Source: a virus
Virus record (IMG/VR): IMGVR_UViG_3300025120_000305
Location: 1 to 31,220 of that record
Length of the DNA stretch: 31,220 bases
Reading direction: 5' to 3' (one strand)
The number at the start of each line of letters is the position of its first letter. The first letter of the stretch is position 1. Below, piece after piece: positions 8,645-26,900 of this stretch. The notes under the pieces were generated by a model. It was given only the letters and a program-made list of their open reading frames with translations. It searched no databases and had not been told where the DNA came from. The translations under genes were made by a program, and so were the position numbers.

Positions 8645-10303
8645 ATGGCAAAACCAAAATTAGCATTAATACCAGCAGCACAAGGAGACAAGTTTTATTC
8701 TGTACTCCCATCAGATGGAGTAGGAGACTTTGACTTTACTCGTAATAGTTCTGCTACTAGAATAGCACCAACTGGATTTATACAAGAAGTAGGAGCATTT
8801 GGAAGTGATTTAGCAAATGGATATAATTTTACAAATGGATGGAGTACTTTTGGAGGTGGAACATCTATAACTAATAGCACAACTTTTGTTTCAGAATCTG
8901 GGCAAGGAATTTACGCTGGTCTTGGTTTGGTTATTAATAAACTATATAGAGTAAAAATAGCTGGAACACAACCATCTGGAGGTTATTTAACTATTAAGGC
9001 TGGAACAACTGGAACATCTTTAGGGAATATTACAGAACAAAGTTTTGACAAAGTGTTATATTTTACTCCTTCGGTAGTTACTGGAACTGGCAATAGTTTT
9101 TATATTAGATTAGCAACGCATCCAGCAAGTACATCTATAACAATTACAAAATTGCAAATAGAAGAAGTAGTAGGAAACAAATCAAGACTAGACTACGACT
9201 TATTAAATGGTAAAGTAGTTAATTGTCCTCATTACCTTTTAGAACCAGCTTCTACTAATTTTATTACTTATTCAAACAATATAAGCCAATGGACAAATAG
9301 TGGTAACACTGTTTCTCCTAATGTTATTACAAGTCCAGATGGAGGTTTAAATGGTGGTAAAGTTATTGTTAATAATGGCACAACTGCAGCAAATATAAGA
9401 CCAATGGCTAGTGTTGCTGCAACAAATGGATTAGACTATGTTTTTTCTGTTTTTGTTAAAGCTGGGGAGTTTGATAAAATAAATTTAGATTTTTCAAACG
9501 CTGTTTTTGGCTCTGCTGGAGCAACATTTAATTTAACAAGTGGAATTTTAACAGATTTTGATGCTGTAAATGTAAGTCAAGGTATAGAGGATTATGGCAA
9601 CGGATGGTATAGATGTTATCTAGTTGCTGCTGCAATTGCAAGTGGAAGTGGTGCGTTAATATTAAGGCTTGATGCTAATGGAGCTGGCGATGGGGTAAAA
9701 GGTTTATATGTTTACGGAGCTCAATATGAGCAAAAATCATTTTTAACAAGCTACATTCCTACTAATGGAACAACTATCACAAGAGCAGCAGAATCTGCTA
9801 CTGACTCTGGAAATGCAGCTACGTTTAACGATTCAGAAGGTGTGTTTATGGCAGAGATAGCTGCTTTGGCTAATGATGGGACTTTTAGAGCGATAAGTTT
9901 ATCAAGTGGGAGTACAACTAATAGAGTATTAATTTACTTAAATAACACTACCAATGTAATAAGACCAAATGTAGTTAGTAATGGAGTTGTACAGATGAAT
10001 GCATATGTAAATGTTCCAGATATTACTAATTTTAATAAGGTTTTAATTAGATATTCTTTAAATAATATTGCTTTTTGGGTAAACGGATATAAATTATCTG
10101 AAGTTTTATCAACTACTTCAATGCCAATTGGATTAAATGAATTATCCTTTGACAATGTTGGTGGTGGTAGTGAGAAATTCTTTGGTAAAACTAGAGAAGT
10201 ACAATACTTTGATTCAGCATTAACAGACGCACAATTAGAAACACTAACAAGTTGGACATCATTACAAGAAATGATTACATCTCAATTATATACAAATTAC
10301 TAA
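8645..10303 (+). CDS. Tail fibre-like protein, paralogue 1
   Basis: The 552-residue protein is the first of three adjacent paralogues. Shared landmarks are FDFTRNSSATRI near residue 30, a LLEPASTNFITYSNN segment near 198, an EQ..SYPTSYIPT-like block (here FLTSYIPTNGTTITRAAES) near 370, and FNDSEGVFMAEI. A concanavalin/LamG-like jelly-roll end follows, closing with ...REVQYFDSALTDAQLETL. The two beta-sandwich halves resemble carbohydrate-binding modules. It likely builds a fibre binding surface glycans. Compared with its two neighbours it carries an additional N-terminal segment (about residues 50-180). Confidence 0.6.
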   Translation: MAKPKLALIPAAQGDKFYSVLPSDGVGDFDFTRNSSATRIAPTGFIQEVGAFGSDLANGYNFTNGWSTFGGGTSITNSTTFVSESGQGIYAGLGLVINKLYRVKIAGTQPSGGYLTIKAGTTGTSLGNITEQSFDKVLYFTPSVVTGTGNSFYIRLATHPASTSITITKLQIEEVVGNKSRLDYDLLNGKVVNCPHYLLEPASTNFITYSNNISQWTNSGNTVSPNVITSPDGGLNGGKVIVNNGTTAANIRPMASVAATNGLDYVFSVFVKAGEFDKINLDFSNAVFGSAGATFNLTSGILTDFDAVNVSQGIEDYGNGWYRCYLVAAAIASGSGALILRLDANGAGDGVKGLYVYGAQYEQKSFLTSYIPTNGTTITRAAESATDSGNAATFNDSEGVFMAEIAALANDGTFRAISLSSGSTTNRVLIYLNNTTNVIRPNVVSNGVVQMNAYVNVPDITNFNKVLIRYSLNNIAFWVNGYKLSEVLSTTSMPIGLNELSFDNVGGGSEKFFGKTREVQYFDSALTDAQLETLTSWTSLQEMITSQLYTNY

Positions 10304-11571
10304 TGGCACAAACACTAAAATTTGGAAATAAAGTATGGGCAGCTAAAGAAGATTCTGTCTTGGCATACAACGACATCAATAACAACTATAAGCCTTTGCC
10401 TTTCGACTTTGCAAGAGCAAGTATAGGAACAAGAGTAAACAAAGATGGTCTAATAGAAACAATGGGGCAAGATATAGCAAGAATAGACTATACAGATAGT
10501 GCTGATGGTGTTCTTTTGTTAGAGCCTAGTTCTACTAACCTTATTACTTATAGTGAGGATTTTACAGATAATAGTTGGGATTTATTAGATGCTACAATTG
10601 AAAACAATTCTAGTTTAGCCACACCAGAAGGAATTAATGGAGTTCAAGAATTAAGAGAGAACAGCGACAATGATGACCATCTTATAAAATCATCTGGAAC
10701 TTTTTCATTAAGCGATTGTTCTTTTAGTTTATTTGCAAAGTACAAAGGAAATAATAGAAATATAAAACTTTCTCTCGGCACTGGTAAATATGCTAGTTTT
10801 AATTTACAAGAAGGATACGTTTTTGATGTGCAATCTTCTACAATAGCTAAAATAATAAAATATTCAAATGGATGGTATAGATGTGAAATTAGTGGTAATA
10901 TATCTGCTTCTAAACTTAATATAATTTTGTTAAATGATACAACTGAAGTTTATCAAGGAGATGGAGCTAGTGGTGTATATATTTGGGGTTCTCAATTAGA
11001 AGCCTTATCCTACCCTACATCTTACATACCAACATCTGGCTCAACAGTAACAAGAGCAGCAGAGACTTGTAATAACTCTGGTAATAGTGAAGTGTTTAAT
11101 GATAGTGAGGGAGTATTGTTTGCTGATGTAAAAATATCAGACAAAAGCACAACAAATTCATATCCTATTTCTATTTTTGGAAATGGAGATGCAATACAAA
11201 TTTATTATAGGTCAGCAACTCAATCTATATCTTTTTTATCGGTTGTTGGTGGGATACAATATTTGTTTCATTCTGCAATAAATCCTTTAGGGAATCATAA
11301 ACTTTCTTTAGTTTATAAACAAGGTCAATATTCTGCTTTTATAGATGGTTTTCTTATGAATAGGCAAAATAGTGGAAATGTTCCATCTGATGGAACTTTA
11401 ACTGCATTAAGTTTAGCAGATACTGGTTCAAGTAATTTTCGAGGAACAGTAAAAGAAGTTGGCTACTACAATACAATACTAACAGACCTTGAACTAGAAA
11501 CATTAACATCATACAGAAACTGGGTGTCTATGGTAAACGAATTAAATTTAAACATAATATACAATGGCTAA
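10303..11571 (+). CDS. Tail fibre-like protein, paralogue 2
   Basis: Start at 10303 is chosen because it overlaps the previous stop by one base (TAATG) and gives MAQTLKFGNKVWAAKED, parallel to MANTLKFGNGQWATGNG of the next gene. An upstream ATG at 10252 would add 17 unrelated residues. The 422-residue protein shares FDFARASIGTRV, LLLEPSSTNLITYSEDF, a YIPTSGSTVTRAAE block and FNDSEGVLFADV with its neighbours. It has a LamG-like end with YNTILTDLELETL. It is probably a glycan-binding fibre or adhesin subunit. Confidence 0.6.
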   Translation: MAQTLKFGNKVWAAKEDSVLAYNDINNNYKPLPFDFARASIGTRVNKDGLIETMGQDIARIDYTDSADGVLLLEPSSTNLITYSEDFTDNSWDLLDATIENNSSLATPEGINGVQELRENSDNDDHLIKSSGTFSLSDCSFSLFAKYKGNNRNIKLSLGTGKYASFNLQEGYVFDVQSSTIAKIIKYSNGWYRCEISGNISASKLNIILLNDTTEVYQGDGASGVYIWGSQLEALSYPTSYIPTSGSTVTRAAETCNNSGNSEVFNDSEGVLFADVKISDKSTTNSYPISIFGNGDAIQIYYRSATQSISFLSVVGGIQYLFHSAINPLGNHKLSLVYKQGQYSAFIDGFLMNRQNSGNVPSDGTLTALSLADTGSSNFRGTVKEVGYYNTILTDLELETLTSYRNWVSMVNELNLNIIYNG

Positions 11572-12736
11572 TACATTAAAATTTGGTAATGGACAATGGG
11601 CAACTGGTAACGGAACAGCTCTTGCGTATAATGACGAGAACGCTAACTTTAAACCTCTACCATTTGACTTTACAAGAGCATCAAGTGGAACAACAGTTAA
11701 TCAATCTGGTTTAATAGAAACAGTAGGTAGTGGAATACCAAGAATAGACTTTCAAGGAAATACTAAAGGTGCTTTATTGTTAGAGCCTAGTAGGAGTAAT
11801 TCAATAAATTATAGTGAAGATTTTAATCAATCTGTTTGGAATAAAACTGGATTAACAGTCTCTTCAAATCAAATAATTTCTCCAGATGGTAGTTTAAATG
11901 CTGATGAAATAAATATAACTGGCGTAAATGCTCACTATCTTTTTGATGTTATTTCAGTAAACGCTTCAACTAATTATGTTTTAACTTTTTATGCGAAAAA
12001 AGGTACTGCAACAGATGTTTCTTATAGCATATATGATAGTAGTAATGGCGCTGACATTATTGCTTCTACTTCATATTATAGTCAAATATCAAATACAAAT
12101 TGGACTAGGATAACTGTTGAATTTACAACACCTTCTGGATGTACTTCAGTAAGACCTTATCCATTAAGAGATGGTTCAAGTGCTGGAACTGTTTACATTT
12201 GGGGCGCACAACTAGAACAAGGCAGCTACCCTACATCGTATATTCGTACCTCTGGTAGTGCTGTAACGAGGGTGGCTGATGCTTGTGATAATGGAGGTAA
12301 TGACCAAGTAATAAATTCTTCTGAAGGAGTTTTATTTTTAGATTTTGAAATTACAGAAAATTCAACTGAAGTAAAACAAACTGCATTATGCAATGGTACA
12401 ACAAGCGAAGCTGTAAAAATATTACAATTAAGTGGTAGTACAAGTTTTAGATTCGAAACTGTTATGTCATCTGGCACAAACTTTCAAAAGAATTTAACAC
12501 TAAACCCATATCAAAGAAATAAATGTGCTTTACAATACAAAGCAAACGACTATAAAGTTTTTGTAAATGGAGTAAAACAAACAGTAACACAAAGAAGTAC
12601 AGTACCAGTAAATTTAGACAGATTTAACTTTAACAGAGGCGTTTCTTCTGCTGATAATTTTTTTGGTAATATAAGAGACGTAAGAGTTTACAACACAGCA
12701 TTAACAGATGCAGAATTAATAGCATTAACAACATAA
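11564..12736 (+). CDS. Tail fibre-like protein, paralogue 3
   Basis: The 390-residue protein overlaps the previous gene by eight bases. It keeps the full set of family landmarks: FDFTRASSGTTV, LLLEPSRSNSINYSEDF, GAQLEQGSYPTSYIRTSG and INSSEGVLFLDFEI, then a final jelly-roll ending VYNTALTDAELIAL. Divergence is greatest between the landmarks, as expected if the sugar-binding loops evolve quickly. The three genes probably arose by duplication. Heteromeric fibre assembly or alternative receptor use are both possible. Confidence 0.6.
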   Translation: MANTLKFGNGQWATGNGTALAYNDENANFKPLPFDFTRASSGTTVNQSGLIETVGSGIPRIDFQGNTKGALLLEPSRSNSINYSEDFNQSVWNKTGLTVSSNQIISPDGSLNADEINITGVNAHYLFDVISVNASTNYVLTFYAKKGTATDVSYSIYDSSNGADIIASTSYYSQISNTNWTRITVEFTTPSGCTSVRPYPLRDGSSAGTVYIWGAQLEQGSYPTSYIRTSGSAVTRVADACDNGGNDQVINSSEGVLFLDFEITENSTEVKQTALCNGTTSEAVKILQLSGSTSFRFETVMSSGTNFQKNLTLNPYQRNKCALQYKANDYKVFVNGVKQTVTQRSTVPVNLDRFNFNRGVSSADNFFGNIRDVRVYNTALTDAELIALTT

Positions 12737-17080: not shown

Positions 17081-17282
17081 TTATGAAAATAATTTTCAGA
17101 TCCTAGCGCAGTATTTAATTAAGTTAGGAAAAAAGCATCCAAATAATAAAGTTGTTGATGATTGTTCTAGAGCTTTAAAAGAAATGTATTTTTATACAAA
17201 TACTTTGCAAATCCAAAACAGAGAATTAATTTTAGAAAATAGTAATATAAAACAAGAAACCAGAAAACAATTAATAAAATGA
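17061..17282 (+). CDS. Small hypothetical early protein
   Basis: The 73-residue helical protein overlaps the previous gene by 20 bases and the next by four (ATGA). Segments FQILAQYLIKLGKKHPNN and DDCSRALKEMYFYTNTLQI suggest two helices. A polar coiled tail follows. No function can be assigned. Confidence 0.5.
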   Translation: MILDSINYENNFQILAQYLIKLGKKHPNNKVVDDCSRALKEMYFYTNTLQIQNRELILENSNIKQETRKQLIK

Positions 17283-17995
17283 GAGAAATGCACTTAAAAT
17301 CAACAAGAACCTATTCAATTTTTAATAAAGTAATAGGCAACAGAAATTTAGATCCTAAAAATCTAAAAAGGATAAAAGAATCAATTAATGAAATAGGTTT
17401 ACAAATGCCTATTCTAGTAAATCAAAATAAATCTATAATAGATGGGCAACATAGATTGCAAGCTGCTAAAGAATTAGAAATACCTATTACATATATAGTT
17501 TCTAAAGATTCATGCGAACAAAATATAGATCAGTTGCAAATTAGCAAGAAATGGACAGCATTAGATTTTTGTAATAGAAATGCTTTAAAAGGAAATAAAG
17601 ATTGCCAAAAAGCATTAGATATTGCTGAAGAATGGTTTATTGAAACTAATGGTAAATTTAGTAAAATTAATATTTTAACTTTATTAGAAAAAGGTTACAA
17701 TCTAGGAGGAGTAATCAAATGTTTAAGAAATAATATTTATGAAATAAACATCAATAATGCAATAAGAATTTATAATGCATTAAAAATATTATCTTTAAAC
17801 AATAATCCAAAATTTAAATCTTATTCTGCAACTAATAGCAGAGTTTTAAAAAGAATGAATAGATCAACATATGGATTAGATTTAAATGTGATAGAAAAAA
17901 TTACTAAAAAAAATTATTTAATTAGTTATAGTAGCGCAAATGATCAATACAATTATTTAATGGATTTATATAACAAATACAATAAAAAGAAATGA
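17279..17995 (+). CDS. ParB/Srx-domain protein, putative DNA-binding
   Basis: The 238-residue protein has an N-terminal ParB/sulfiredoxin-like domain. LDPKNLKRIKESINEIG and LQMPILVNQNKSIIDGQHRL (41-60) include the GQHR nucleotide-binding motif, followed by QAAKELEIPITYIV. The rest (about 85-238) is helical and basic and may hold a helix-turn-helix. ParB-like domains bind CTP and slide on DNA, or act as nucleases in phage relatives. Context in an early operon fits replication or gene control. An ATG at 17288 is a possible later start. Confidence 0.7.
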   Translation: MREMHLKSTRTYSIFNKVIGNRNLDPKNLKRIKESINEIGLQMPILVNQNKSIIDGQHRLQAAKELEIPITYIVSKDSCEQNIDQLQISKKWTALDFCNRNALKGNKDCQKALDIAEEWFIETNGKFSKINILTLLEKGYNLGGVIKCLRNNIYEININNAIRIYNALKILSLNNNPKFKSYSATNSRVLKRMNRSTYGLDLNVIEKITKKNYLISYSSANDQYNYLMDLYNKYNKKK

Positions 17996-23227: not shown

Positions 23228-23418
23228 AGAATGATATAATTTACCAATTTTATTATATAGCTTTATATGATTATGAAAAAGGCAATGATGTAGATGAATT
23301 AAAAATGATTATGTATGATTATGAGGATAAAGAATTATATTTAGAATGCGAAGGGATAAGATTAGCAATAGAATATATAGAATTTTTAGAATTAATACAA
23401 AATATAATAGATGAATAG
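23215..23418 (+). CDS. Small acidic hypothetical protein
   Basis: The 67-residue, strongly acidic helical protein (FYYIALYDYEKGNDVDELKM, then CEGIRLAIEYIEFLELIQ) overlaps its neighbours by 13 and 8 bases. Acidic small early proteins can be DNA mimics or inhibitors of host proteins, but there is no motif here to support that. Confidence 0.5.
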   Translation: MEGLKNDIIYQFYYIALYDYEKGNDVDELKMIMYDYEDKELYLECEGIRLAIEYIEFLELIQNIIDE

Positions 23419-23797
23419 TAATGAAATAAGAAATTTAGTTCAGAGGAATTTTGAGTTAAATTTGAATCAAAAGAAAAGAACAAAAAAATTAGTTCATGCA
23501 AGGGCAGTATATTTTAAACTTTGTAGAGATTGCACTGATTTAACTCTTATGGAAATATCAAAAACATTGGGTTTTCATCATGCGACAGTAATACACAGCA
23601 TTAACAAAATATTTCCTTCTTTTGATATGTATAATAATGATTACATAACAATTTATAATCAAATTAAAATGCAAGATAGCAAAGCTCCATTAAGCAAAAG
23701 ATTTGAAGCTGCTAAAAATGAAAACACTAATTTGAAAAGAGAAATAGAAAAATTAAAAAGAAAAATAAATAAACATGAAACAGAGACTATCTATTAA
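23411..23797 (+). CDS. DnaA domain IV-like DNA-binding protein without AAA+ domain
   Basis: The 128-residue protein has at 21-67 the pattern of DnaA domain IV: KKRTKKLVHARAVYFKLCRD, then LTLMEISKTLGFHHATVIHS (45-64) and INKI. It matches the DnaA signature (S/T-L-x-E-I-G...HxTVxHA). In DnaA this helix-turn-helix binds the DnaA box. The AAA+ ATPase and DnaB-contact domains are absent. In their place the end is a coiled coil (ENTNLKREIEKLKRKINK). It could bind phage or host origins, or act as a repressor. It sits between exonuclease and ParB genes. Confidence 0.75.
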   Translation: MNSNEIRNLVQRNFELNLNQKKRTKKLVHARAVYFKLCRDCTDLTLMEISKTLGFHHATVIHSINKIFPSFDMYNNDYITIYNQIKMQDSKAPLSKRFEAAKNENTNLKREIEKLKRKINKHETETIY

Positions 23798-24287
23798 TAA
23801 AATAAAGCCTAATGCAGTTAATCCTAGATACATTAAGGATCATAAGTTTAAAAAGCTAGTTAAAAGCATTAAAAGTTTTCCTGAAATGCTAGAGAAAAGA
23901 CCAATCATAGTAGATGAAAACATGATAGTTCTTGGAGGGAATATGAGATTAAAAGCATCAATAGAAGCTGGATTAAAGGAAGTCTGGATAGATATTGCAG
24001 AGGGATGGTCAGAAGATCAAAAGAAAGAATTTATAATAAAAGATAATGTAGGCTTTGGAGAATGGGATTGGGATATATTAGGAAATGAATGGAATGTAAA
24101 GCAATTAGAACATTGGGGTTTAGATGGTTTTCCTTTTGAAGAAGAACAAGTCGAAATTAAAGATATATCTGATAGTATAGAAAGCTCATTCAGAGTAGAA
24201 GTAGAATTAGAAAATGAAGAAGAACAAGAAAAATTATATAACGAATTAATAAACAAAGGATATATATGCCGACTTTTGACATTATAA
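23775..24287 (+). CDS. ParB-domain protein paired with ABC/GNAT gene
   Basis: The 170-residue protein begins with a ParB-like fold. LSINKIKPNAVNPRYI and KFKKLVKSIKSFPEMLEKRP are followed by PIIVDENMIVLGGNMRL (43-59), with GGNMRL in place of the usual G-x-x-R motif. A domain with WSEDQKKEFIIKDNVGFGEWDWDIL follows, a pattern found in phage ParB-methyltransferase proteins. The end (FRVEVELENEEEQEKLYNEL) forms a small alpha/beta unit. No methyltransferase is attached. It overlaps both neighbours by 22-23 bases, so it is translationally coupled to the ABC/GNAT gene and likely acts with it. Confidence 0.7.
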   Translation: MKQRLSINKIKPNAVNPRYIKDHKFKKLVKSIKSFPEMLEKRPIIVDENMIVLGGNMRLKASIEAGLKEVWIDIAEGWSEDQKKEFIIKDNVGFGEWDWDILGNEWNVKQLEHWGLDGFPFEEEQVEIKDISDSIESSFRVEVELENEEEQEKLYNELINKGYICRLLTL

Positions 24288-25348
24288 AACAAACAACAGC
24301 TCCTAAAACATTTAGAGTAGCATCTGTTATAGGTAAATTTGATTTACAAAGTGAAAAAATAATAGAACATTTTAAAGGAGAAATTAATTTAGAAATTGAT
24401 TGGAAAATAGGATTAATTGTAGGTAAATCAGGAACAGGTAAAACAACCATAGCAAAACAATTGTTTCCTAAATCATATGTAACTAATTACAAATATGATA
24501 AATTAACAGTTTTAGATGACATGCCTAAAGATTGCTCTGTTGATCAAATAACAAAAGCATTTAATAGTGTAGGTTTTTCAAGTCCACCAAGTTGGTTAAA
24601 ACCATATTCTGTTTTATCTAATGGTCAAAAAATGAGAGTTGATTTAGCTAGAGCTATTTTAGAAGAAAACAAAATGTTTGTATTCGATGAATTTACTAGC
24701 GTTGTGGATAGAAATGTTGCTAAAATAGGAAGTTTTGCAATTCAAAAAGCAATTAGAAAAACAAATAAACAATTTATAGCTGTTGGATGTCATAATGATG
24801 TAGAAGATTGGTTAATGCCTGATTGGGTTTTTAATACTGATACCATGACCTTTCATTCATTTGAAGGGCAAAAAAAAAATAGACCAGAAATTAAATTTAA
24901 CATATATGAATCTAAAAACAAATCAATTTGGAAGATGTTTGCTAAACACCATTATTTAAGTCATTCACATAATAATGCTGCCCATGTTTATTTAGCAACC
25001 ATAAACAATGAAATAGCTGGCTTTTTAAGTGTTTTACATTTACCACATCCAAAAGTAAAAAACATAAAAAAAGTACATAGATTAGTTATTTTACCTGATT
25101 ATCAAGGAGCTGGATTTGGTATAAAATTTTTAGAAGAAATAGGAAAACATTATAAAAAACAAAAATATAGATATACAATAGTTACATCAGCTCCTAGTTT
25201 AATATATGCTTTAAAAAAATCATTTAAATGGTCATGTAAAAATTATGGTCGATTAAAAGGTGGTGGAACAGGAATATTACATGGTACAAATAAAAGATTA
25301 ACAGCAAATTCAAAAAATAGAATAACAGCATCATTCGAATTAAAATAA
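24266..25348 (+). CDS. ABC ATPase fused to Mom-like GNAT acetyltransferase
   Basis: The 360-residue protein has two domains. Residues 1-200 form a soluble ABC ATPase: Walker A VGKSGTGKT (52-60), signature VLSNGQKMRVDLARA (116-130), Walker B MFVFDEFTSVVD (137-148), and switch His CHND (H176). There is no membrane segment, so it is not a transporter. Residues about 215-360 are GNAT-like: MFAKHHYLS, a beta hairpin IAGFLSVLHLPHP, VHRLVILPDYQGAGFGIKFL (270-289) with the acetyl-CoA loop QGAGFG, and TSAPSL. This resembles Mu Mom relatives, which modify adenine in DNA. The pair with ParB and terminase suggests DNA modification. Confidence 0.75.
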   Translation: MPTFDIIKQTTAPKTFRVASVIGKFDLQSEKIIEHFKGEINLEIDWKIGLIVGKSGTGKTTIAKQLFPKSYVTNYKYDKLTVLDDMPKDCSVDQITKAFNSVGFSSPPSWLKPYSVLSNGQKMRVDLARAILEENKMFVFDEFTSVVDRNVAKIGSFAIQKAIRKTNKQFIAVGCHNDVEDWLMPDWVFNTDTMTFHSFEGQKKNRPEIKFNIYESKNKSIWKMFAKHHYLSHSHNNAAHVYLATINNEIAGFLSVLHLPHPKVKNIKKVHRLVILPDYQGAGFGIKFLEEIGKHYKKQKYRYTIVTSAPSLIYALKKSFKWSCKNYGRLKGGGTGILHGTNKRLTANSKNRITASFELK

Positions 25349-25354
25349 AAAAAA

Positions 25355-25714
25355 ATGAACAAATCCGACACTATAAAAGAAAAGTTAATAGAAGCATTAG
25401 AAAAAAGTTTAGGTGTTGTTACAACTGCTTGTAAGAATGCTAATATACATAGATCAACTTATTATGATTGGTATAATAAAGATGAGGAATTTAAAAACAA
25501 AGTTGATTTAATTCAAAATGTTGCTTTAGATTTTGCAGAAAGCCAATTGCATAAACAAATACAAGAAGGATCAACAAGCGCAACAATATTTTATCTAAAG
25601 ACAAAAGGCAAAGCAAGAGGATATCAAGAAAATCAAGCGATTGATTTAAATACTTCAGGAGAAATTAATGTAAACTTTAAGAATTTAATTAGTGCAATTA
25701 AAGATAAGGGATAA
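25355..25714 (+). CDS. terS: Terminase small subunit
   Basis: The 119-residue protein has an N-terminal helix-turn-helix: KEKLIEALEKSLGVVTTACK, then NANIHRSTYYDWYNKDEEFK (29-48). A helical oligomer region (VALDFAESQLHKQI) and TSATIFYLKTKGKARGYQ follow, typical of phage small terminases. It binds the packaging site and loads the large subunit, whose gene overlaps by 23 bases. Six bases separate it from the ABC/GNAT gene. Confidence 0.8.
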   Translation: MNKSDTIKEKLIEALEKSLGVVTTACKNANIHRSTYYDWYNKDEEFKNKVDLIQNVALDFAESQLHKQIQEGSTSATIFYLKTKGKARGYQENQAIDLNTSGEINVNFKNLISAIKDKG

Positions 25715-26900
25715 ATTTTTGGTATGGGATAAAGTAGATTCACGATACTTTATTATAACTGGTGGTAGAGGATCTGGGAAATCTTTTGCCATCAATACCA
25801 TGCTATTATTATTAACTCAAGAACAAGGGCATACTATTTTATTTACTAGATATACTTTGCGATCAGCAAACATTTCTATCATTCCAGAATTTAAAGAAAA
25901 GATAGATCTTCTTAATTTAAATCATATGTTTCATATAACTAAAGATGAAATAATAAATAAGAATTCAGGATCAAAGATATTATTTAGAGGAATCAAAACA
26001 TCTTCAGGAGATCAAACAGCTAATTTAAAATCATTGCAAGGAATAACAACTTGGGTAATGGATGAAGCTGAAGAATTAGTTGATGAAAGCATCTTTGATA
26101 AGATAGATTTATCAGTAAGAAAGAAAGGCATAGACAATAGAATAATGCTAGTATTAAACCCAGCAACTAAAGAACATTGGATTTACAAGCGTTTTTTTGA
26201 AAGTAAGGGTATTGATTCAAAAAGTAATTTAAGCGCAGGAAATGTTACTTATATCCATTCTACGTACCTAGATAACATTGATAACTTGTCTGATAGTTAT
26301 TTAGCAAGAATAGAAGATATAAAAAACAATAGACCAGCAAAATATGAGCATCAAATATTAGGAGGATGGTTAGAAAAAGCAGAGGGAGTTATATTTAGTA
26401 ATTGGTCAATAGGAGAATTTAAGGAAGTTTCAACTGTTGTGCTAGGTCAAGATTATGGATTTTCAGCAGATCCATCGGTATTATTAAAAACTAGCATAGA
26501 TAAAAAAAATAGAAAGATTTATGTAAAGTTATGTTTTTATAAAACGCATTTAACAACAAGCAACATTGCTCAACTTAATAAACAATTTGCTGGTCAGAAT
26601 TTAATCGTAGCTGACAGCGCAGAGCCAAGGCTTATAAATGAACTGTCTAGGCATTGCAATATAGTTCCAACAATCAAAGGACAAGGATCAATCATATTTG
26701 GAATTAGCTTATTGCAAGATTATGATTTAATAATAGATCCTGAAAGCACAGAGATAGTTAAAGAACTAAACAACTATTCATGGTTAGAAAAGAAATCGCA
26801 AACCCCAATAGATAAATTTAATCATACTATTGATGCTTTAAGGTATGCAGTAGCCTATCAATTAGAGAACCCAAATAAGGGAGAATATTTTATTTATTAA
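25692..26900 (+). CDS. terL: Terminase large subunit
   Basis: The 402-residue packaging ATPase/nuclease starts most likely at GTG 25692; no in-frame ATG fits before the P-loop. Walker A is FIITGGRGSGKS (20-31), Walker B TTWVMDEAEE (119-128), and LVLNPAT is motif III. The RNase H-like nuclease acids are D254 (GQDYGFSADPS), D308 (VADSAEPR) and D381 (KFNHTIDALRYA). This fits the PBSX/SPP1-like (Terminase_3) group. Such terminases usually package headful from a concatemer, which agrees with circular permutation. It ends the long operon. Confidence 0.92.
   Translation: MQLKIRDKFLVWDKVDSRYFIITGGRGSGKSFAINTMLLLLTQEQGHTILFTRYTLRSANISIIPEFKEKIDLLNLNHMFHITKDEIINKNSGSKILFRGIKTSSGDQTANLKSLQGITTWVMDEAEELVDESIFDKIDLSVRKKGIDNRIMLVLNPATKEHWIYKRFFESKGIDSKSNLSAGNVTYIHSTYLDNIDNLSDSYLARIEDIKNNRPAKYEHQILGGWLEKAEGVIFSNWSIGEFKEVSTVVLGQDYGFSADPSVLLKTSIDKKNRKIYVKLCFYKTHLTTSNIAQLNKQFAGQNLIVADSAEPRLINELSRHCNIVPTIKGQGSIIFGISLLQDYDLIIDPESTEIVKELNNYSWLEKKSQTPIDKFNHTIDALRYAVAYQLENPNKGEYFIY

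Follow-up and report, generated by a model that had tools for sequence, protein, structure and literature searches.

A 35-residue tail module is the most constant partner of a widespread phage ABC ATPase-GNAT fusion with a candidate role in DNA-base acylation

The 31,220-base IMG/VR virus record analysed here (the window) encodes a fusion of a soluble ABC ATPase and a GNAT acyltransferase, termed ABC-GNAT below. Judged from gene neighbourhoods across its family, the most constant partner of this enzyme is a 35-residue module at the C-terminus of the preceding protein (the tail module), not the ParB domain as such. In a Mu-like clade, ABC-GNAT appears to have replaced mom behind mom's own regulator com. 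A role in DNA modification is the reading best supported by these data.

The fusion protein of 360 amino acids is encoded on the plus strand at 24266-25348. It is a member of phrog_11143 by full-length match (E 3.1e-96, residues 14-325) and carries the ABC domain N-terminal to the GNAT domain, with Pfam matches of the protein to ABC_tran (E 4.6e-10) and Acetyltransf_7 (E 6e-7). The ABC domain (24266-24877, plus strand), supported by Pfam, conservation and a PDB fold search, contains Walker A (GKSGTGKT, 24422-24445), the signature (LSNGQ, 24614-24628), Walker B (FVFDE, about 24674-24691), the D-loop (D148) and the switch histidine (H176, 24791-24793), all of which form invariant or near-invariant columns among 77 diverse homologues. 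The GNAT domain (24878-25258, plus strand) is matched by PF13508 when the GNAT half is used alone (E 9.7e-8) and is conserved across the same 77 rows; it holds a conserved HHYL motif (24947-24958) and the acyl-CoA loop RLVILPDYQGAGFG (25079-25120). It has the QGAGFG loop, and its invariant columns include YL as well as R272, P277 and G281. Since the motifs of both halves are kept in such diverse homologues, both look catalytically alive on sequence grounds. Both halves were modelled well by AlphaFold (pLDDT 85, pTM 0.80). A PDB fold search with the whole model returned ABC domains only among the 50 listed hits and is thus uninformative on the GNAT half. An earlier note on this DNA had described complete ABC motifs together with a QGAGFG acetyl-CoA loop, which is borne out by this conservation; its open reading frames for the ParB protein (23775-24287, 170 amino acids) and for ABC-GNAT, the 22-base overlap between them and the terminase gene six bases downstream are likewise correct.

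On the plus strand, ABC-GNAT lies in a run of genes joined by overlaps or short gaps, which comprises a gene encoding only domain IV of DnaA, the ParB gene, ABC-GNAT and both terminases. The terminase small subunit-like protein (25355-25714; phrog_309 E 4.5e-8, phrog_4102 E 3.2e-7), which lies outside the module, starts 6 bases past the stop of ABC-GNAT; the large subunit follows at 25692-26900 (PF04466 E 2.9e-36). The first gene of the run (23411-23797) holds little beyond DnaA domain IV (PF08299, E 2.7e-13) and a coiled coil, and it overlaps the ParB start by 23 bases, an arrangement that recurs in close relatives. Elsewhere in the window, at 8645-12736, three adjoining paralogous virion tail proteins each match phrog_5939.

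Distant scans of viral contigs each yielded at least 516-586 confirmed relatives of ABC-GNAT. Cultured phages carrying one include those of Pseudoalteromonas, Oenococcus, Lactococcus, Streptococcus, Gordonia, Arthrobacter, Porphyromonas, Pseudomonas, Leptospira, Pasteurella, Aeromonas and Vibrio, among others. In Streptococcus, Oenococcus and Lactococcus phages the ABC and GNAT parts are split into two genes, and three plasmid records also hold a copy. Over this wide host range the module often occupies the late region, directly before the terminase or after the virion tail genes. The family is widespread yet uncharacterised, and belongs to the commoner uncharacterised phage enzymes.

The gene preceding ABC-GNAT in the window (23775-24287, plus strand) encodes a ParB-fold protein (residues 1 to about 120) with the tail module at its C-terminus. 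ParB_N (PF02195) is matched at E 2e-4, which is under Pfam's gathering score, and phrog_620 at E 2e-22. The AlphaFold model (pLDDT 87) matches CTP-bound ParB structures (7bnr, E 1e-5), and at the level of this model the ParB fold, that is, the NTP-binding fold of the N-domain, is confirmed. The P motif (GxxRxxA) reads GNMRLKA in the window, and its arginine is absent in several homologues (HGVVMAA, TKTAANAA, NGTLEAA). The window holds a second ParB-like gene (17279-17995; phrog_12305, E 2e-18), which has no tail module.

Comparison of upstream genes identified the tail module (residues 137-170; 24183-24287, plus strand; tail HMM E 2.6e-17) as a unit separate from the ParB domain. It is a 35-residue beta-alpha-beta unit, for which AlphaFold predicts a confident helix between strand-like segments (pLDDT 94-96 for residues 141-160) and a low-confidence linker to the ParB domain. 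The module stands directly upstream of ABC-GNAT in 314 of the 420 loci having upstream sequence; 238 of these tails are on ParB, 56 are short proteins, 15 belong to other open reading frames and 5 are cut by a contig end. Among informative non-redundant relatives, with one tail-less clade set aside, the fraction is 115 of 127. Porphyromonas, Pseudomonas Komp_PAO1_1 and two gut phages have no ParB beside ABC-GNAT and encode the tail as a free protein of 40-49 residues that overlaps the ABC-GNAT start; the tail reading frames from Porphyromonas carry the annotation 'acr candidate'. A tblastn search of 50,697 phage records with the tail consensus (E up to 10) matched 24 records, each of them an ABC-GNAT phage. 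ParB homologues are far commoner (202 phage records), and only three matches to the ParB query cover at least 80% of it, all in ABC-GNAT phages. The confinement of the tail to ABC-GNAT phages, as against the far commoner ParB, points to the tail rather than the ParB domain as the specific partner. In Gordonia phage AnClar (locus L099, 604-1089), a gene for an HNH endonuclease separates ParB-tail from ABC-GNAT; the product of this endonuclease gene ends in the tail-like residues KVVTV.

Neither ParB nor tail is strictly required, since both are missing from the tail-less clade, where neither occurs anywhere in four complete genomes; in two further phages without an upstream tail, none was found elsewhere either. 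The earlier note had proposed a survey of whether the ParB and ABC/GNAT genes co-occur, and had suggested a division of labour in which ParB chooses the DNA. Co-occurrence holds in most relatives and breaks down in most Mu-like members and in the tail-less clade. The proposed choice of DNA by ParB does not survive this comparison, as in most Mu-like members only a free-standing tail is left beside the enzyme and the tail-less clade has neither.

The ParB-tail and ABC-GNAT genes overlap by 22 bases (24266-24287, plus strand). This length is identical in 80 of 80 close viral loci, whereas the gap downstream of ABC-GNAT is variable among them, and it is also found in Oenococcus, Streptococcus and Lactococcus phages. 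At other loci the overlap is mostly 19, 16, 10 or 4 bases long, and the positive overlaps of less than 40 bases in the non-redundant set share one relative frame (102/102). An AAAGGA Shine-Dalgarno sequence and the ATG of ABC-GNAT (24255-24268, plus strand) lie inside the tail coding sequence; across 127 loci with a 22-nt overlap, the G at -8/-7 is kept in 98-99% and the TG of the start codon in 100%. A programmed -1 frameshift joining ParB-tail to ABC-GNAT was considered and rejected: although the frames would fit, inspection of the window overlap showed no canonical slippery heptamer, and ABC-GNAT starts behind a Shine-Dalgarno sequence of its own.

Judged from the alignments, the apparent conservation of the tail is partly a by-product of the overlapping ABC-GNAT start. 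The second cysteine of the tail was discarded as a functional residue: its 97-100% conservation is confined to loci in which the start codon overlaps it, and it disappears with overlaps of 4 or 10 nt, so that its conservation is a coding shadow of the ATG. The tail glycine overlaps the Shine-Dalgarno sequence in the 22-nt group. Glycine, glutamate, glutamine and the first cysteine are retained in most members even with overlaps of 4 or 10 nt, and are therefore genuine protein signals.

The gene order in the Mu-like clade is com, tail, ABC-GNAT and formyltransferase. In 34 distinct loci, all of one clade, tail and ABC-GNAT are immediately preceded by a gene for a Com zinc-ribbon, and the three examples scanned by Pfam match Com (PF10122, E 9e-21 to 5e-8). 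In phage Mu, com lies after the tail-fibre region, immediately before mom, which it overlaps; by the same search, Com is present at 31 of 32 mom loci and the tail module at none. Mom was not found in ten ABC-GNAT phages or contigs searched whole, so that ABC-GNAT appears to take mom's place. Besides Mu itself, a Mu-type transposase was found in 5 of 11 tested records, in one of them only below the family cut-off; two models gave no match in the remaining tested records. Com is a dedicated translational activator of Mu mom and acts on the mom mRNA. Its position upstream of ABC-GNAT would accordingly put the enzyme under mom-type control, which is the strongest independent hint that the product of ABC-GNAT is a DNA modification. 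Com beside ABC-GNAT is absent in the window phage and limited to a clade that excludes the window lineage. At the Com loci, the region near the tail start gave no signal for a conserved RNA hairpin as Com target (mean z -0.6).

The relation to Mom suggested by this context finds no support in sequence comparison. The earlier note had taken the segment HRLVxLPxYQG as Mom-like; it turned out to be the ordinary GNAT acyl-CoA loop, which is absent from Mom. At the segment corresponding by eye, Mu Mom and 12 homologues have ELNR[LM]WLHDxMP, and they have no QxxGxG loop. Comparison of the GNAT half with Mom by hhalign, using a Mom alignment whose low diversity leaves room for a remote link, gave a probability of 0.5%. 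Pfam Mom (PF25680) is matched weakly by 6 of 61 members (best E 3e-4) and Acetyltransf_7 by 60 of the 61, the GNAT half resembling generic GNAT models; the listed Pfam families of the window protein include no Mom match. Membership in Mom was therefore rejected on profile comparison (hhalign, Pfam). ABC-GNAT may be Mom-like in its working, judged by context, yet it is no Mom by profile.

Just downstream of ABC-GNAT, 63 of the 76 informative loci of the Com-containing clade have a formyltransferase-like gene. In part of another clade, this side is occupied by the aspartate decarboxylase gene panD (PF02261, E of about 1e-30 or better), behind which stands a CoA-transferase-III-like gene of half length (loci L086, L195, L206 and L252). 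The presence of these genes suggests clade-specific acyl groups that neighbouring genes produce or modify. The formyltransferase-like proteins keep HPSLLPxxRG (including those of L087, L089 and L125) and have G, A, I or V, not Asn, at the second position ahead of the catalytic His. In PurN and FMT, Asn is expected at this position, and the chemistry of the formyltransferase-like proteins may differ from theirs. The missing Asn and the roughly half length of the CoA-transferase-like proteins weaken the idea of these neighbours as sources of the acyl donor. No formyltransferase or PanD type gene adjoins ABC-GNAT in the window, so that host acyl-CoA would be the likeliest donor there.

Taken together, we lean towards the view that ABC-GNAT acylates a DNA base. 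In this view, ABC-GNAT would be a late phage enzyme that acylates a DNA base at an exocyclic amino group, and phage DNA modified in this way would resist host nucleases. The ABC domains would dimerise on DNA in an ATP-dependent manner and make the target base accessible, to which the GNAT half would then move an acyl group from an acyl-CoA. For the tail module, we infer a role as dedicated protein partner or adaptor of the enzyme, and the overlap would couple its translation to that of ABC-GNAT. In the window phage, the ParB-fold domain to which the tail is attached probably aids loading or regulation without being essential. The acyl group probably depends on the clade, being made or altered by the adjoining downstream gene where present; in the window phage it would come from host acyl-CoA, probably acetyl-CoA. 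We put forward only tentatively the fuller proposal that the tail, an adaptor detachable from ParB, serves a DNA acylase driven by ATP as its dedicated activator, that the acyl group is formyl-derived, beta-alanyl-derived or taken from the host, depending on the clade, and that Mu-like phages swapped mom for this enzyme and kept Com. The DNA-modification system of the earlier note thus remains the best-supported reading, through a published prediction and Com in the Mu-like relatives, and loses its sequence link to Mom and the choice of DNA by ParB. Several observations count against acylation of a DNA base: the GNAT half is like generic GNATs, not Mom; the acyl-donor idea is weak; the Com clade excludes the window phage; tail and ParB are both missing from the tail-less clade; and no conserved RNA hairpin was seen at the Com loci.

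The first of these observations would also suit a host-takeover or anti-defence factor that acetylates an RNA or one of the host's proteins, such as RNA polymerase or a ribosomal protein. A generic GNAT model fits nearly all members (Acetyltransf_7, 60/61), acetylation of RNA polymerase is reported for the phage GNAT Rac (PMC7824862), and an RNA cytidine acetyltransferase is a weak PDB match (E 0.017). We nevertheless regard this as unlikely, given that the Mu-like clade has Com upstream and places the enzyme in mom's position after the tail-fibre genes, that Mom is absent from the carriers checked and that a ParB domain is frequently associated.

A small tail gene that overlaps the gene of an enzyme is also reminiscent of many two-gene modules, so that the pair might be a phage-borne toxin-antitoxin or defence (superinfection-exclusion) module. 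The 'acr candidate' label from Porphyromonas and a match of the ABC domain to PADLOC mad3 (E 3e-11, 77 residues) would fit, but this match is limited to the ABC signature region, and the frequent late-region place, before the terminase or after virion tail genes, recurs over wide host ranges, which makes such a module improbable. We likewise give little credence to ABC-GNAT and ParB being passengers in a chance late-gene cluster without joint function. Overlaps of unrelated genes are common in phage late operons; here, however, the junction is kept between marine phages and those of Streptococcus, Oenococcus and Lactococcus at about 50% identity, the positive overlaps all share their relative frame, and the tail stays when ParB is lost.

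The basic idea of DNA acylation by such proteins is already in print: an uncharacterised acyl modification of DNA bases by a GNAT working with an ABC ATPase was predicted in 2013 by Iyer, Zhang, Burroughs and Aravind, as cited in PMC7824862, where the prediction was restated in 2021. The example given there, QAX98348.1, was retrieved as a homologue of the window ABC-GNAT. PMC7824862 assigns it to Tenacibaculum phage pT24, and the sequence record to Aeromonas phage AsFcp_2; a separate ABC-GNAT copy is present in pT24, annotated as two open reading frames. The open literature searched, whose scope did not include the 2013 paper, yielded neither the tail module nor the Com link or the formyltransferase/PanD association, and no experimental work on the ABC-GNAT system was found in it. 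As far as searched, the tail as constant partner, the order of Com, tail and ABC-GNAT and the clade-specific downstream genes are new. The Com link argues independently for DNA modification, the tail would be the protein to co-express with the enzyme, and the genes downstream offer concrete candidates for the chemistry. As culturable laboratory phages, among them Lactococcus P335, Pseudomonas Komp_PAO1_1 and Gordonia Ligma, carry ABC-GNAT, the proposal is directly testable by nucleoside mass spectrometry.

Among known systems, the one predicted by Iyer et al., as represented by QAX98348.1 in PMC7824862, concerns the same kind of protein; this example belongs to the clade without ParB and tail, whereas the window phage has ParB-tail. 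Mom of phage Mu (PF25680), a GNAT-superfamily member according to the literature, has this superfamily in common with ABC-GNAT, and Com (PF10122) and the genomic place are common to Mu and the Mu-like clade; unlike ABC-GNAT, Mom has no QxxGxG loop, no ABC domain and no tail. ParB-fold phage proteins of phrog_498 and phrog_620, which are often fused to DNA methyltransferases, share the N-terminal ParB-fold domain with the window protein. The latter has no methyltransferase, however, and in the phage records the tail occurs only on ParBs beside ABC-GNAT. The RNA cytidine acetyltransferases TmcA and NAT10 also fuse an ATPase to a GNAT domain and act on a nucleic-acid base. Their likeness to ABC-GNAT is one of analogy only; their ATPase is a RecA-like helicase and not an ABC domain, and the sequence match between them is weak.
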